Assembly (NCBI RefSeq): GCF_000025525.1
Contig: NC_013887.1
Span: 258,729-322,728 of the forward strand
Direction of reading: 5' to 3'
Origin: Methanocaldococcus sp. FS406-22
GTDB lineage: Archaea; AGJL01; Methanococci; Methanococcales; Methanocaldococcaceae
Length of the DNA: 64,000 nt
The position numbers were made by a program, and so were the translations under genes. How positions within the stretch are numbered: the first letter of the stretch is position 1; each line of letters begins with the position of its first letter. A model generated the notes under the pieces. It made no database searches. It saw only the letters and a program-made list of their open reading frames with translations, and had not been told where the DNA came from. Shown one piece after another: positions 17,882 to 63,817 of this stretch.

Positions 17882-18373
17882 TCACCTTAATATTATGGCA
17901 TTCAATGGACATAGTTCCTCGCATCTTCCACAGAGCTCACACTTATTTATATCAATTCTTATTTTGCTTCCATATTCTTCAATGGCATTAAATGGACAAT
18001 TCCTTAAACAAACTAAGCAAGAGGCACATCTCTCACTTATATACTCAATGAATTCATACTTGTCCACTTCAATAATCCTTGCATCTTCATTAATTTCACA
18101 TCTTAATCTTATTATTACAATTGCGTTCGTTGGGCAAACTTTTTTGCATCTTCCACAAAATACACATTTTTCTTTGTCAATAACTATAAATAAACCATCT
18201 TTGCTATAAGTTATTGCATCAACTGGACAAATCTCAATGCATTTTCCACAGCTAATGCATTTGTCCTCTTTAACAATAATTTCCCTTTTATTTAAAATAA
18301 TATTAAATTTTGGGAGTAATTGAATATTTTTATCAGCCAAATTAAAATGTTTAGCTATTATTTCCTTTATCAT
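17882..18373 (-). CDS. Eha hydrogenase ferredoxin-like protein, four [4Fe-4S] motifs
   Basis: A 163-residue iron-sulfur protein with four complete CxxCxxCxxxCP motifs (CISC, CVFC, CASC, CELC). The first 33 residues carry no cysteines. It lies between two polyferredoxin genes, overlapping the upstream one by 23 bp. It is therefore part of the electron-supply arm of the Eha complex, facing the cytoplasm. The ATG at 18373 follows GAGGGAG. It may correspond to the N-terminal part of the ten-cluster EhaQ-type polyferredoxin of other methanogens. Confidence 0.85.
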   Translation of the reverse strand: MIKEIIAKHFNLADKNIQLLPKFNIILNKREIIVKEDKCISCGKCIEICPVDAITYSKDGLFIVIDKEKCVFCGRCKKVCPTNAIVIIRLRCEINEDARIIEVDKYEFIEYISERCASCLVCLRNCPFNAIEEYGSKIRIDINKCELCGRCEELCPLNAIILR

Positions 18374-19568
18374 ACAACTCCCTCTTCATTTCCTTTATTC
18401 TTTTGTTTTCCTCATAAACTCTCTTCTTTAACTCTTCTTTTAACTTTTTGAGGGATAGTTTTTCGATTTCTTCCTTAACCTTTCCGTACTTCTCAGTATA
18501 TAAGATTAAATCTGCTTCAATACTTTCGATTATCTTATCTTCTATTATTCTAACTTTAACTGCCTCTTCTGCCTCTTCTGGCTTGACTATTTTTATAGCC
18601 TCAACAGGACACTCCCTTGCACATGCTCCTCCTCTAACACATAATTCAGGAACAATATATGGCAATTTTGTCTCTTTACTGATTTTAATAGCTCCTGCTC
18701 CACAAACCTTATAGCAGATTCTACAACCAATACATAAATCTTCATCAATAACATAGCAAATATCCTTCCTCTTTGAGATTATAGGTTTATAAATCCTTAT
18801 TGCTGTGGTTGGGCAGAGTTCTATGCATAGACCGCATTTCACACATTTAACAACTTTCTTCTCCTTCAAATCAATCTCTCCTACACATACATCTTTACAG
18901 ATTCCACAACTTATACATAAACCATTAACAATATGTGGAATTTCCTCAATAGCATTTTCCTTAATTTCTAATTTTCCGATAGTTTTCTTGTTTTTAATTT
19001 CAAAAGCTTTATCTATTTTTTCTTTCAAAGTTTTTTCGTCAAATATAATTATGGCGTTTTCAATTGGGCAGGCCTTAACACATTCTTTACATGAGATACA
19101 CAAAGCCATATTTATTACATACTTCCCCTCTTTACGCTCAATTACATTGATTGGGCAAGCTCTTTCACAGTTTCCACATCTAACACACACTTCCTCATCA
19201 ATTATAAGATTATGATATTTAGGTTTATCAAAAAATAGTCCTTCTGTTTCAATTCTATGCTTATCCATCTCCAAAACTCCGGTTGGACAAACCTCAACAC
19301 AGTTGGCACAAGCTATACATGAACCCTCATCAAACACTGGGAGATTTTTGTTATACTCCTCACTATATACCATCTCAACTGCAAAGGCTGGACAACTCTC
19401 TTTACATGCCTCACAAGATATACATTTCTCAGGAAATTTAACAATTGGAGGGATTTTTCTATATCTCTCTGGAGGGATGTAGGAACTTTTATCTGATTTT
19501 GCATCAATAAATCTCTTAATCCACTTTTTCCTTGCAAATTCATAAAGATACCAAAGTGATGATGCCAT
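18351..19568 (-). CDS. Eha hydrogenase polyferredoxin, eight ferredoxin motifs (last one degenerate)
   Basis: A 405-residue polyferredoxin of the Eha energy-converting hydrogenase. Seven complete cluster motifs are visible (CISC, CIAC, CVRC, CISC, CISC, CVKC, CIGC). The eighth reads CVRGGACARECP, with Gly in place of the second Cys, so it may hold a [3Fe-4S] cluster or none. The C-terminal 70 residues are a charged, Lys/Glu-rich coiled-coil-like tail. The ATG at 19568 is set by AAGGTGATTCTT. A duplicate of this exact start region (site, ATG and nine codons) lies 118 bp further upstream; see the repeat at 19542-19699. Confidence 0.85.
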   Translation of the reverse strand: MASSLWYLYEFARKKWIKRFIDAKSDKSSYIPPERYRKIPPIVKFPEKCISCEACKESCPAFAVEMVYSEEYNKNLPVFDEGSCIACANCVEVCPTGVLEMDKHRIETEGLFFDKPKYHNLIIDEEVCVRCGNCERACPINVIERKEGKYVINMALCISCKECVKACPIENAIIIFDEKTLKEKIDKAFEIKNKKTIGKLEIKENAIEEIPHIVNGLCISCGICKDVCVGEIDLKEKKVVKCVKCGLCIELCPTTAIRIYKPIISKRKDICYVIDEDLCIGCRICYKVCGAGAIKISKETKLPYIVPELCVRGGACARECPVEAIKIVKPEEAEEAVKVRIIEDKIIESIEADLILYTEKYGKVKEEIEKLSLKKLKEELKKRVYEENKRIKEMKRELYDKGNNS

Positions 19569-19699
19569 AAGAATCACCTTATATTAATTTAAGAGGCATC
19601 ACCGAGCGTAGCGAGGTGATGCATCCCGGGTATACCAATAGGACGAAGTCCTATGGTCTATAAAGATACCATAATGAGGAAGCCATAAGAATCACCTTA
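19542..19699. repeat. Palindromic element with duplicated gene start (polyferredoxin)
   Basis: A 40-bp direct repeat: 19542-19581 holds the real ribosome binding site, ATG and first nine codons of the polyferredoxin gene, and 19660-19699 is a second copy. Copy two would encode MASSLWYLY, the same peptide; the coding differences (codons 2, 3 and 5) are all synonymous. It then stops, giving an 11-codon mini-ORF (19651-19686, minus). Between the copies are two hairpins: GCATCACC ... GGTGATGC (19596-19622, loop GAGCGTAGCGA) and ATAGGAC-GAA-GTCCTAT (19638-19654). Confidence 0.8.
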
Positions 19700-22281: not shown

Positions 22282-23154
22282 TCACATTAATAATCTGTAT
22301 AGAACATCACACAATACGAGCCCAGCAATTGTCATTTGAAGCATAACTGAGTGGTGAGGAGCTAATAATGGTGTTAATCCATTTACAAATGCTAAAATCA
22401 CTGTCATCACAACCATTACAGCCAGTGTTAATATAGGGCTGTTTATTACGAAAGGGCCGATAAATATGGCTATAAACAGCCAGAGTAATACAAAGTATGC
22501 TATTGCCTCAGCAATGTAGATTATTGATGCCAATAAACCATAATGCTCTGTCATGTATCCACTAACTATATCTTTACCCTTAACTATTCCAAATGGACTG
22601 TTTGGAGCTTTTGAAACAAGCAATATGAAGAATGCAAACGCACAGATTGGCATTTTAAACAGCAAACTTCCATTTATTTCCTGATAGTTCAATATGTCTG
22701 AAATTAGAACTGAGTGTGTTGTTAAATAGATGGCAGCAACAACTGCAAATAAAGGAACTTCTGCAGCTGCTGAGAAGACACTCCTAACCCCTCCTATCTT
22801 TCCATAAGGAGAACCAGATGACAAACCACAACCATGCTCCACTATTTTTTGCAATACATAGATTCCTATGATTATGAGGAGAGATGATTTGAAATCAATG
22901 GCTATAATTAATGCAGCTAACCAAATAGCAACATCCAACAAAGCCACAAATATATAAAGAGGATTTCCAGCAGTTATTGGAAAAGTTATCTCCTTTACAT
23001 AGAATTTTAAGGTATGTAATAGATACTGAATTATTGGAGGGCCTGGTCTTCCTTGAATTCTTGCCATTATCTTTCTATGCAATCCAAGTAATAAAGAGCC
23101 AACAAGAAATGCATGGATTGTTAGGTTTATAACTCCGATTAGTGAAGTGTCCAT
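22282..23154 (-). CDS. ehaJ: Eha hydrogenase membrane subunit EhaJ (NuoH-like)
   Basis: The 290-residue NuoH/HyfC-like subunit that joins the hydrogenase module to the ion-translocating membrane part. It has about eight helices and the family's cytoplasmic loop RKIMARIQGRPGPPIIQY (residues 27-44), equivalent to the quinone-site loop of complex I, plus the conserved Glu-containing AAAEVPLFA and YMTEHYG segments. Start ATG at 23154 follows GGGTGAGGAT. A second, identical copy of its first codons lies 130 bp upstream inside a palindromic element. Confidence 0.9.
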   Translation of the reverse strand: MDTSLIGVINLTIHAFLVGSLLLGLHRKIMARIQGRPGPPIIQYLLHTLKFYVKEITFPITAGNPLYIFVALLDVAIWLAALIIAIDFKSSLLIIIGIYVLQKIVEHGCGLSSGSPYGKIGGVRSVFSAAAEVPLFAVVAAIYLTTHSVLISDILNYQEINGSLLFKMPICAFAFFILLVSKAPNSPFGIVKGKDIVSGYMTEHYGLLASIIYIAEAIAYFVLLWLFIAIFIGPFVINSPILTLAVMVVMTVILAFVNGLTPLLAPHHSVMLQMTIAGLVLCDVLYRLLM

Positions 23155-23285
23155 ATCCTCACCCAGATTTTATTTCTTGTTTAATTTACACCTCCGAGTG
23201 TAAGCGAGGAGGTGTTAGTTTTGATGAAACTTTCTTAAAGTTTCATTGATAGCGTTTTATAACTCCGATTAGTGAAGTGTCCATA
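23126..23285. repeat. Palindromic element with duplicated gene start (ehaJ)
   Basis: Thirty identical bases occur at 23126-23155 (real start of ehaJ) and 23256-23285. The upstream copy has its own ribosome binding site (AAGGTGATGCTT) and encodes MDTSLIGVI before a stop after 13 codons. The 100 bp between the copies contain a hairpin with stem ACACCTCC / GGAGGTGT (23188-23215, loop GAGTGTAAGCGA), the connector TAGTTTTGAT, and a second hairpin GAAACTTT-CTT-AAAGTTTC (23226-23244). The element at 58.2 kb is the same sequence on the opposite strand. Confidence 0.85.
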
Positions 23286-58060: not shown

Positions 58061-58100
58061 AAATTCCAAAGAATTTTAATTAAAAAACTTTTTATTTATT

Positions 58101-58291
58101 TTTTTAGATTCTCCTTAACTTCTTTAGCAATAGCTCTACTTAATATCGGAGGAACACTCTCTGCCGAACCTTTAATAAAGGTTCATCAAAACTAACACCT
58201 CCTCGCTTACGCTCGGAGGTGTAAATTCTTATAATCTCTCTTTAACTTCTTTAGCTATAATTTTACTTAATATCGGAGGAACGCTTTCTCC
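58101..58291. repeat. Palindromic element with duplicated gene end (DNA methyltransferase)
   Basis: The 3' end of the methyltransferase gene occurs twice: the real one at 58226-58291 and a diverged copy at 58101-58165. The copy would encode AESVPPILSRAIAKEVKENL against the real GESVPPILSKIIAKEVKERL, and ends in KK-stop. The 60 bp between hold hairpin GAACCTTT-AAT-AAAGGTTC (58166-58184), connector TCATCAAAACTA, and hairpin ACACCTCC / GGAGGTGT (58195-58222). Apart from one loop base, one compensatory base pair and a few others, this is the 23.2-kb element on the other strand. Confidence 0.85.
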
Positions 58292-59161
58292 AATTTGATT
58301 ATATTGAGCATCCCTTCCTCCAAAAAACACAAAATCATCTGGATAACTCATTAATCTTGCCTGTTCTCTTACAGTTAATAACCTATCCTCATAAGGATGA
58401 ATAAACCTACTTCTTCCTTTAACAGTTGGAGCTAACTTATGGGGATGAAGCCTATACCAATTAAACATCAACTTTTTCTTTCCTCTGTATCTATATAACG
58501 CCTCTTCCCATTTTAATTTTGATATCATTTCTACTTTTTCCTTAGAAAGTTTTTTGATTTCATGATTCTTAGCATCTTTTGGAATGTCTTTTAAAGCTTC
58601 TTCTACAACAACAATTTTATCAGCTTTCTTTGGTTTTAATTTTATATTTGAAATAAACATCCTCGCTCTTTTTGATGGATTTCCGTAGTCTTCAGCCCTC
58701 AATATATTGAAATAAACCTTATGTCCTATGTCTCCAAATAGTTTTTTTAACTCATCCTTAATTTCTTTAATTTGTGGAACATTTTCCATAACAAATATTA
58801 AATCATCATTTTTTTGTGTAAAGTAATTGACATAATCTATATAATATAGAACTAACCTACCAACTTTGTCTTTATATAACCTGTCTAATGGATTATCTTT
58901 AATTAGTTTATTTGCCTTTGTAAATGGCTCACATGGAGGAGAGCCGATAATGACATCAACTTTCTCATTTTTTATAAATTCATCAAATGCTTTTGGCGGA
59001 ATCCTCTTTATATCATCCATCCACACTGGAGCTTTGATATTGTATAAATAAGTTTTAACAACTGGCTTAAAGTTCTCTATAGCTCCTAAAATTTTAAAGT
59101 TTTCATCTAAAAAACCTTTTGAAAATCCTCCACAGCCGGAGAATAAATCAATGACATTCAT
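58229..59161 (-). CDS. Orphan DNA cytosine-5 methyltransferase
   Basis: A 310-residue C5 methyltransferase. Motif I is VIDLFSGCGGFSKGF (residues 3-17), motif IV is GSPPCEPFT (catalytic Cys, about residue 79), motif VI is FVMENVPQ (about 126-133), and IGESVPP near residue 290 is motif X-like. It corresponds to MJ0563. No restriction endonuclease gene is adjacent, so it is either an orphan enzyme or has an unlinked partner. Both flanks carry palindromic elements, and its last codons are duplicated downstream. Start follows GGTGAGAGT. Confidence 0.88.
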   Translation of the reverse strand: MNVIDLFSGCGGFSKGFLDENFKILGAIENFKPVVKTYLYNIKAPVWMDDIKRIPPKAFDEFIKNEKVDVIIGSPPCEPFTKANKLIKDNPLDRLYKDKVGRLVLYYIDYVNYFTQKNDDLIFVMENVPQIKEIKDELKKLFGDIGHKVYFNILRAEDYGNPSKRARMFISNIKLKPKKADKIVVVEEALKDIPKDAKNHEIKKLSKEKVEMISKLKWEEALYRYRGKKKLMFNWYRLHPHKLAPTVKGRSRFIHPYEDRLLTVREQARLMSYPDDFVFFGGRDAQYNQIGESVPPILSKIIAKEVKERL

Positions 59162-59172
59162 ACTCTCACCGA

Positions 59173-59329
59173 AACTTTTAGAAAAAGTTAAACAAAAACT
59201 CTTCGAGTTTTTGTAGCCCGAAGCTAACGCTTCGGTTAAATAAAAACTCTTCGAGTTTTTATAGCCAGAAAGCTTTGCTTTCTGTTGAACAAATCCTAAC
59301 GGATTTGTAGCCCGAAGCTAATGCTTCGG
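59173..59329. repeat. Tandem array of seven short hairpins upstream of the methyltransferase gene
   Basis: Seven perfect inverted repeats lie in 157 bp: 59173-59189 (AACTTTT stem), 59194-59212 (AAAAACTC), 59218-59235 (CCGAAGC), 59242-59260 (AAAAACTC), 59266-59284 (CAGAAAGC), 59289-59308 (ACAAATCC) and 59312-59329 (CCGAAGC). Hairpins 2-7 form three dimers with a 47-48-bp period, the junctions reading TAGCC and then GGTTAA or TGTTGAA. Loops are three or four bases (TTC, TTT, TAAC, TAAT). The end TTCATCAAAACTAA is shared with the 58.2-kb element. The rest of the 59162-59433 gap shows no gene I can support. Confidence 0.85.
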
Positions 59330-59433
59330 TTTCATCAAAACTAATGAACAAACTCCCAATGATTTTTATTAAACACTTCATACCCATATACCCACCAAAA
59401 GAAAAGAAAATAGATTATATTGCTAAAACAAAT

Positions 59434-62149: not shown

Positions 62150-62632
62150 TAATCTCGAGGTTATATTTAAATATTAATTTTCATAAGGAAGAAGATAAAA
62201 ATGCTTATATATGAGTTTGTTGATAATTTTGATTAAGGTGTTTTTAGTGTCTGCTATATTGTTGGAAGTTTGTCTCGTTGAATGAACTTGGAATTTGATA
62301 AAGGTAATCATTAGTTGGTATTTGTTAATTTAGAGGATTTAAATTTAATTTCTAAGGATTTGTTGGTTTGATTATTTGAAATATTTATGTCTATTAAATT
62401 ATTTGGATTTTTAAAAATTAAGGTTAAATAATTAGGTAAATAAAATTTCTCCAACCAATAAGTTAAATTTTTAAATTTAGAAAGATAAAAATACTCAATT
62501 TTGTTAAAAAAGAAAGATTTAAATATTAGTAGGTTTATAAATGAAGACAGTTATTTACCCTTAGAAAAATACACCACCAAAAAGTATAAATATAAGAAGA
62601 ACAATAAAAAATAGGTTGTTGATGACTGCCCT
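62150..62632 (+). promoter_or_regulatory. CRISPR leader
   Basis: About 480 bp without a gene, rich in A, T and G and very poor in C on the plus strand, directly upstream of the conserved repeats. A TATA-like AAAGTATAAATATAAG (62581-62596) lies 37-52 bp before the first repeat, the expected promoter of the pre-crRNA. A second TATA (CTTATATATGAG, 62203-62214) sits near the alaS start and could serve either strand. The leader side is set by uniform repeats here and degenerate ones at the other end. Confidence 0.75.
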
Positions 62633-63660
62633 GTTAAAATAAGACCGATTCGGTATGGAAACTATGTTAGAGATGCCATATAACAATATGACACGTTAAA
62701 ATAAGACCGATTCGGTATGGAAACCCGTATCTACATAATTAGCCCTTGGTATTGTTGAGTTAAAATAAGACCGATTCGGTATGGAAACGTTTTTTCTCTC
62801 AAGTGCTCAACAATCTCTCTAGTTAAAATAAGACCGATTCGGTATGGAAACAAACTTCCACCACATCCATTAATGAAATAAAACCCAAGGTTAAAATAAG
62901 ACCGATTCGGTATGGAAACAATGTAAATGTTTATTTAGATGAGGATTATGTTGGAAGTTAAAATAAGACCGATTCGGTATGGAAACAGTAGTTCATAGCA
63001 AAAATGACACTACTGCGGAGAGTTAAAATAAGACCGATTCGGTATGGAAACTTGGGGCAGGCGGGATAATAGGCGGTGTCGACGATAGGTTAAAATAAGA
63101 CCGATTCGGTATGGAAACAACATTGAGAGTAATAGTTCCAGCTAACGCCCAAACAATCGTTAAAATAAGACCGATTCGGTATGGAAACAATTTCTATTTA
63201 ATCTCTTTCCTGTATAACCATAATCAATTAGTTAAAATAAGACCGATTCGGTATGGAAACTTATTGCCCCACAAACTGGACATTTAAACTCTTCTGCCGT
63301 TAAAATCAGACCGATTCGGTATGGAAACAATTCAACGCCGACAACCCAGAACTTATACTTTAATTTTCTAGTTAAAATCAGACTGATTCGGTATGGAAAC
63401 AAAATTCTTCAAAATTATTAAATTTCTTTTTCTCCATAGTTAAAATCAGACTGATTCGGTATGGAAACGTGGCTTCGGTGGCTACCAAATTGTCAGTATG
63501 AAGGAGGTTAAAATCAGACCGGTTCGGTATGGAAACTTCAAATCTTTATCCATATCGAGAATAAATACTTCTGTTAAAATCAGACCGATTCGGTATGGAA
63601 ACATGATACTGAACACATCTTACTACATCGAGTTAAAATAAGACCGTTCCGGTATGAAAC
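62633..63660 (+). CRISPR. CRISPR array, 16 repeats and 15 spacers
   Basis: Repeats are 30 nt, beginning GTTAAAATAAGACC and ending ATTCGGTATGGAAAC, so the crRNA handle would be ATGGAAAC. They start at 62633, 62695, 62759, 62822, 62890, 62957, 63022, 63089, 63159, 63231, 63299, 63371, 63439, 63507, 63573 and 63632; the last is one base shorter and mutated. Spacers are 29-43 nt, most of them 32-42. Repeats 1-10 are identical; 11-15 carry AATCAG instead of AATAAG, with extra changes. The repeat resembles the M. jannaschii type. No cas gene lies in the window, so the array must be served in trans. Confidence 0.97.
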
Positions 63661-63817
63661 TAATGCTCTTTTAAAAAATATTATTTTTTATTAAAACTAC
63701 TTAATATTTTTAATAAAAATAGATTTTTATATTTAAATAAATATACATTTGGTATCTAACCCTCAAATTAATAAGCAATAAAAAGGTTTAATGTGCAATA
63801 TACTATAATGTGAAACT

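Follow-up and report, generated by a model that had tools for sequence, protein, structure and literature searches.

Duplicated gene termini flank a non-coding hairpin element in Methanocaldococcus and may be exchanged with it between species and paralogs

Tyrosine integrases act at the ends of genes and tRNA genes, the lost gene end being replaced by one that the incoming DNA carries. In M. jannaschii, palindromic repeats were reportedly described by Suyama, Lathe and Bork in 2005 as old intergenic repeats, three of which are inside open reading frames; we know of nothing in that work on terminus duplication, polarity or exchange. Palindromic repetitive elements in M. jannaschii, dated 2005, are cited in the accessible sections of two later papers (PMC2229807; PMC2996958). 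Variable target duplications of 3-26 bp are given for YPAL in the accessible text of the first of these (PMC2229807). In fungal mitochondria, mORFs have been described (Glomus atp6, atp9, cox2 and nad3; Allomyces atp6), in which, according to the accessible part of the account, an element that codes for an endonuclease inserts in a gene end and contributes a foreign C-terminus fused in frame, the native C-terminus being displaced downstream, where it matches that of a close relative (PMC3630166). A literature search, with subscription papers mostly outside its reach, returned no account of terminus duplication or exchange at archaeal repeats of the kind considered here.

The DNA analyzed in this work, referred to as the window, is a stretch of 64,000 nucleotides from the 1.77-Mb genome of Methanocaldococcus sp. 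FS406-22 (G000). It contains MTase1, a methyltransferase gene whose 3' end is doubled (Table 1). The copy of a terminus attached to the gene body is designated B, and the other copy is designated D. The last 65 nt of MTase1 are 82% identical to the outer copy, with a start-to-start spacing of 127 bp, in agreement with the offset of about 126 bp proposed on the basis of the letters alone (the sequence-only reading). That reading was also correct in assigning to the outer copy a different, homologous C-terminus, which reads ESVPPILSRAIAKEVKENLKK followed by the stop codon, the working C-terminus reading ESVPPILSKIIAKEVKERL followed by the stop codon, and in detecting no recombinase gene: the insert between the two copies comprises just 62 nt with two hairpins, and the other inserts inspected are hairpin arrays not exceeding a few hundred bases. 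The spacings of 118 and 130 bp reported for two further sites were recovered (19542 to 19660 and 23126 to 23256); both of these sites are gene starts. A simple tandem duplication at the MTase1 end was rejected, the insert being unrepeated and part of a dispersed family. The window additionally contains, between MTase1 and alaS (59187-59345), small hairpins in tandem whose stems vary; this cluster ends in the TTCATCAAAACTAA linker also found in the element, and G004 has a shorter form of it at the corresponding location. A CRISPR array of 16 repeats occupies 62620-63661.

Table 1. Features of the three sites with doubled gene termini in the window.
Feature	Position	Strand	Basis
MTase1, C5 cytosine DNA methyltransferase gene, 3' end doubled	58229..59161	-	ORF; NCBIfam TIGR00675 dcm, E 1.3e-36
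Copy B (inner) of MTase1, working 3' terminus, in frame with the MTase1 body	58225..58289	-	sequence comparison
Two-hairpin insert, member of a dispersed family	58163..58224	.	15 matches in own genome at E<=0.001
Hairpin T1 (GAACC..GGTTC), side of the insert facing copy D	58166..58184	.	sequence; T1 stems covary
Hairpin A, 8-bp stem, core GAGCGTAAGCGA (opposite strand), gene-body side	58196..58221	.	A/B stems covary
Copy D (outer) of MTase1, displaced 3' terminus, open reading as far as a stop codon of its own	58098..58162	-	sequence comparison
Polyferredoxin-like gene, start doubled (first site)	18351..19577	-	ORF; ferredoxin families
Working start copy B, first site	19542..19581	-	repeat comparison
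Insert, first site: B-type hairpin (GCATCACC..GGTGATGC) and T2 hairpin (ACCATAGG..CCTATTGGT)	19582..19659	.	
Displaced start copy D, first site, 90% identical	19660..19699	-	
NuoH-like membrane subunit gene, start doubled (second site)	22282..23154	-	ORF; NCBIfam NuoH family match below cut-off
Working start copy B, second site	23126..23155	-	30/30 identical to outer copy
Insert, second site; A hairpin at 23189-23214	23156..23255	.	
Displaced start copy D, second site	23256..23285	-	

The 62-nt insert gave 103 matches corresponding to 99 distinct sites in 11 of the 14 genomes of the genus, with 1 to 22 per positive genome (E<=0.001). In the order as a whole, 13 of 36 genomes matched the element, including two from another genus (G034 and G035). 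The elements are 60-250 bp in size, are devoid of open reading frames, and are modular: one end consists of an A- or B-type hairpin, the other of a T1 or T2 hairpin, and additional hairpins are optional in between. Some composite elements carry a T hairpin at both ends. The stems covary, since the outer pairs of T2 were formed in a proportion of 0.782 versus 0.486 with shuffled partners, the pairs of T1 in a proportion of 0.738 versus 0.545, and those of the A/B core in a proportion of 0.938 versus 0.821. Searches of Rfam at gathering thresholds identified no family for the elements and returned just sR3 and CRISPR repeats for the window. In the genomes of relatives, elements were observed beside or inside CRISPR repeats (L067, L101, and L105). 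Two near-identical composites of ~250 bp, each apparently flanked by a gene-end repeat, occupy successive gene junctions of the por operon (L103, G001:145540 and 146407). At L115 (G011 C159) and L114 (G004), the T2 hairpin of the element harbours a distinct nested sequence that resembles a MITE and has CACAGAACTTTCACAG inverted repeats.

Direct repeats spanning the element were searched for within 300 bp on each side of the 99 sites, the control consisting of 1000 random centres in the same loci, which were used in place of an earlier null inflated by orthologous loci. Direct repeats formed by CRISPR repeats (4 of the 55 with a score of at least 20) were dropped ahead of counting. A spanning repeat with a score of at least 18 was present at 60 of the 99 sites versus 23 of the 1000 random centres; for a score of at least 20, the corresponding values were 51/99 and 15/1000. 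At 39 of the 99 sites, a repeat scoring at least 18 was absent outside CRISPR repeats. The length of the flanking repeats ranged from 19 to 75 bp. Forty-seven of the 60 repeats hold the terminus of an open reading frame with the body adjoining one copy (32 stops and 15 starts), versus 356 of 4000 random 40-mers holding the terminus of an open reading frame. The elements thereby lie within a few dozen bases of the start or the end of genes. The initial proposal that the element inserts inside gene ends holds for 32 stops and was too narrow, since 15 of the 47 assigned termini are gene starts. The ends of tRNA genes are also hit: L066 and L056 are located at one same tRNA 3' end, L071 and L085 are tRNA 3' ends by appearance, and the tRNA copies are decayed.

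The arrangement is polar. Copy B was on the side of the A hairpin in 41 and on the T side in 3 of the 44 assignable cases, 16 of the 60 being without assignment. The exceptions were L094 and the first L102 site, which have T hairpins at both ends, and L195, which is a 21-bp repeat. Since the polarity is equal at gene starts and gene ends, it does not reflect orientation with respect to transcription. We infer that AT-rich intergenic DNA is adjacent to the A end and coding DNA to the T end. Extra bases were found between the repeat and the A hairpin in L045, L082, and L118.

The two copies of a terminus are at some sites nearly identical. In G007, two copies of 45 bp are identical at 45 of 45 positions; in its sister G013, in which the gene body is 97% identical, that junction holds another pair of copies, which match each other but belong to a different type. 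A pair specific to each sister was also observed at the first site of the window. The pattern suggests either that B and D undergo gene conversion or that the entire unit was replaced. In G035, which belongs to another genus, a gene start is duplicated over 48 bp with 47 of 48 positions identical, and a second start is similar. In the 48-bp case (L209), the bases just upstream from the ribosome-binding site differ, indicating that at this site the duplication does not directly abut the A hairpin. The near-identical copies in G007, G013, and G035 fit a target duplication. At the scale of the family, the differences between B and D were distributed over the three codon positions as 62/46/153 (59% in third position), a table in which orthologous sites are counted repeatedly and which includes a few doubtful frames (L095 and L101), so that it serves as supporting evidence only. 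We interpret the third-position excess as a sign that each of the two copies functioned as a gene end for some time.

Comparison of related species revealed three genes in which the working copy B is of a foreign type and the displaced copy D is the resident one. In the first, MTase1 of G006, the insertion is present, and the corresponding site is empty in the sister G005. The two gene bodies differ at 14 of 600 positions. Copy B shows 10 differences out of 63 with G005 (Fisher versus body, 2e-5) and 4 out of 60 with G009, and the outer part of D with its flank shows a single difference out of 118 with G005. The 60 bp upstream from B differ at 1 position from G005 and at 10 positions from G009. 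Thus, the upstream sequence is of the G005 type and B is not, which places the switch at the start of the MTase1 terminus. At the start of D, about 5 of the first 42 bases differ from G005. As a control, the element-free termini of trpB and of the KCYK gene were almost identical by eye in G005 and G006, indicating that gene ends are not generally fast evolving in these genomes. Alignment with relatives, as suggested in the sequence-only reading for recognizing the native copy, therefore designated the outer one in G006, which matches the empty site of G005, the inner one being nearer to G009. The idea that the element supplies a substitute end was largely borne out: the working end can be a substitute and the outer end a displaced resident, but some flanking copies are nearly identical, as predicted by target duplication.

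In the second gene, porB of G010, copy B and the 3' UTR differ at 2 of 56 positions from G009 and at 10 of 56 from G005, and copy D with its flank differs at 7 of 89 positions from G005 and at 26 of 87 from G009. In porB of G006, the G009-like stretch extends at least 60 bp into the body. The KCYKKVP gene of G004 is the weakest of the three cases, B resembling G013 including the 3' UTR and D resembling the native end of G000 (11/54 and 6/59 differences). The window genome itself is less clear: between G000 and G001, B of MTase1 is 81% identical (11/60 differences), D 78%, and the body 87-99% when compared in windows (46 differences over 600 bp), and neither copy is clearly of the sister type. 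Copy D of G000 adjoins a purA-side flank common to G001. The downstream neighbours of MTase1 vary by species (L014-L025), the gene being on the purA side in G000, G001, G002, and G010 and elsewhere in the others, which suggests relocation or rearrangement of the gene or of its surroundings. In G004 (L019), a remnant of the T1 hairpin was observed past the end of MTase1 without a displaced copy, as if D had been lost.

A terminus has also been exchanged between paralogs. MTase2, a second methyltransferase gene located elsewhere in the genome, encodes a protein ~54% identical to that of MTase1. Elements are present at the homologous position of MTase2 in G000, G005, and G009, and a decayed element in G002. 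In G013, the MTase2 terminus differs at 5 of 57 positions from MTase1 of the same genome, versus 12-21 of 57 from MTase2 of 11 other genomes; the 150 bp preceding this terminus are nearer to MTase2 (25-30 differences) than to MTase1 (33-44 differences), and a hairpin array directly follows it. These results indicate that the terminus was swapped between MTase1 and MTase2 in G013. An MTase1-like end had also been suspected, from the protein, on MTase2 of G005 and G009, and received no support from the nucleotide sequence (5 versus 6 differences in the last 24 nt of G005 MTase2).

The model that we consider probable is that a hairpin element devoid of open reading frame generates a long target duplication, after which the unit spreads by homologous recombination between species and paralogs. 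The element would enter DNA with a long and variable duplication of the target, nearly always in an orientation that leaves the A end outside the gene and places the T end within it. By regenerating the terminus, the duplication would allow insertions to survive at the starts and ends of genes and at tRNA ends. The unit formed by terminus, element, and terminus would then be flanked by homology to any related gene, and homologous recombination or gene conversion could carry it from one species or paralog to another, the recipient gaining the terminus of the donor while its own would remain outside as a relic. The first duplication is presumed to be a target-site duplication, the spread to depend on homologous recombination of the host, and an enzyme to have performed the original insertion. 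Mobilization by a resident reverse transcriptase or Y1 transposase was not supported by genome searches: of the 14 genus genomes, none has a reverse transcriptase match (PF00078) and 2 have a Y1 transposase match (PF01797), without tracking the copy number of the element; the latter was absent from G001 and G004 despite 19 and 22 element matches. An autonomous partner was also sought between the paired copies at G001:131762 and 132621, and just one ordinary host-like gene is present there. Several observations speak against the model: neither MTase1 copy of G000 is clearly of the sister type, the searches for reverse transcriptase and Y1 transposase gave no candidate insertion enzyme, 39 of the 99 sites are without a spanning repeat, the repeat is separated from the A hairpin at L209, L045, L082, and L118, the MTase1-like end suspected on MTase2 of G005 received no support, and the boundary of the swap in MTase1 of G006 falls at the duplicated terminus, which is shorter than expected of ordinary conversion tracts.

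A bolder proposal, which we advance tentatively, is homing without a recombinase, the duplicated terminus acting as a homology guide with which a small cassette of terminus plus hairpins would move to the same gene of other species and to paralogs. Conceivably, each move would swap an N- or C-terminus, the old one being left as a fossil record. A moving unit of this type fits the short imports in MTase1 of G006 and porB of G010, but not the partly non-resident D of MTase1 of G006 or the longer G009-like stretch in porB of G006.

Among the alternatives to spread of the unit by host recombination, it appears rather unlikely that a cassette of ~110-130 bp, comprising terminus and hairpins, pops out, through recombination of its two termini with each other, as a small circle or a short fragment, and similarly doubtful that it re-enters by a single crossover at a homologous terminus, with no target-site duplication past the first event. 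Such a cassette would account for the coincidence of the foreign switch with the terminus in MTase1 of G006 (1/60 upstream and 10/63 in B versus G005) and in porB of G010, and for the presence of an MTase1 terminus on MTase2 of G013. It leaves unexplained the acquisition of the element by dozens of different termini, and the start of D in MTase1 of G006 is not purely G005-like, which calls for a longer donor segment including part of D. The stretch of at least 60 bp of G009 type in the body of porB in G006 also speaks against it. The similarity between the elements on MTase1 of G006 and on MTase2 of G005 and G009 (64/69, or 92%, for the G006 and G005 elements) could also be cited in its favour, but a copy located elsewhere in G001 is nearly as close to these two elements (89 and 94%).

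It is improbable that a long target-site duplication alone, with the displaced copy drifting neutrally and no exchange between species, explains the sites. The near-identical copies (45/45 in G007 and 47/48 in G035), the variable repeat length (19-75 bp), and the decayed tRNA copies are as this explanation predicts, but the proportion of third-position differences (59%; 62/46/153) exceeds the roughly 45-50% estimated for neutral drift, divergence from the sister is far greater in copy B of MTase1 in G006 than in the gene body (Fisher, 2e-5), and MTase2 of G013 carries the terminus of a paralog. The sister comparisons thus disfavour it. Even less credible is a site-specific integration into gene ends of the type catalyzed by integrases at tRNA or icd 3' ends, the analogy drawn in the sequence-only reading. 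A duplicated end does restore the gene, and the D junctions coincide across several species (MTase, porB, and the KCYKKVP gene). However, members of a single family are present at dozens of termini that have no relation to each other and with which a fixed attP would find no match, elements of 60-250 bp are too small for a recombinase gene, and the common junctions are accounted for by shared descent or exchange; no resemblance to att sites and no sign of an integrase-like mechanism emerged, the enzyme searches in the genomes having covered reverse transcriptase and Y1 transposase. Finally, derivation of the outer copy from a separate methyltransferase gene once next to MTase1, the finding named in the sequence-only reading as refuting it, can be dismissed for the family, since the paralogous methyltransferase present in the genome is located elsewhere, the same sequence position in G005 is where this gene has its one native end, to which the outer copy corresponds in relatives, and the arrangement recurs at starts and ends of unrelated genes.

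If the model of target duplication followed by homologous exchange is correct, an element without an enzyme of its own alters protein ends across the genus and between paralogs, and the foreign and resident termini lying side by side at each site would form a readable record of archaeal gene exchange. It would also explain how insertions can accumulate in core and likely essential genes (hydrogenase-type operon genes, porB, trpB, and tRNAs) and leave them intact, and the spread of non-coding palindromic repeats in archaea would become a testable question.

The hairpin elements share features with several known systems. Like the palindromic repeats of M. jannaschii, with which they were compared by description only, they are non-coding, palindromic, dispersed, and found in the same genus, and the two may be the same or overlapping sequences. 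Bacterial MITEs and YPAL/RU-2, as far as described in the accessible sections of PMC2229807, are likewise small, non-autonomous structured repeats, but the direct repeats here reach 75 bp, the ends are unlike, and foreign gene termini travel along. The short, multi-copy, non-coding, and structured character of MITEs is found in the hairpin elements, whereas terminal inverted repeats are not, the A and T ends differing in most copies, and repeats of 19-75 bp take the place of a short target duplication of fixed length. Unlike REP/RAYT systems, the repeat-rich genomes are not those with a Y1 transposase (PF01797 in 2/14). The variable-length duplication with one conserved and one variable end is that of retroposons inserted by target-primed reverse transcription, but no reverse transcriptase was found in the genus genomes (PF00078 in 0/14). 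With integration by tyrosine integrases at gene ends, the elements have in common that a replacement gene end is supplied by the inserted DNA; they differ in having no recombinase gene and no fixed target, and in using gene starts too. The nearest functional parallel is provided by the mORFs, as they appear in the accessible part of PMC3630166: the foreign terminus is in frame and the native one is pushed outward, as in MTase1 of G006, porB of G010, and the KCYKKVP gene of G004. The mORFs encode a homing endonuclease and the cases described there concern the C-termini of single genes, whereas the Methanocaldococcus element consists of 60-250 bp of hairpins without an open reading frame and has copies at both starts and ends of dozens of genes. 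If our model holds, these hairpin elements would be an archaeal counterpart, without an endonuclease gene, to the terminus-swapping mORFs of fungal mitochondria.
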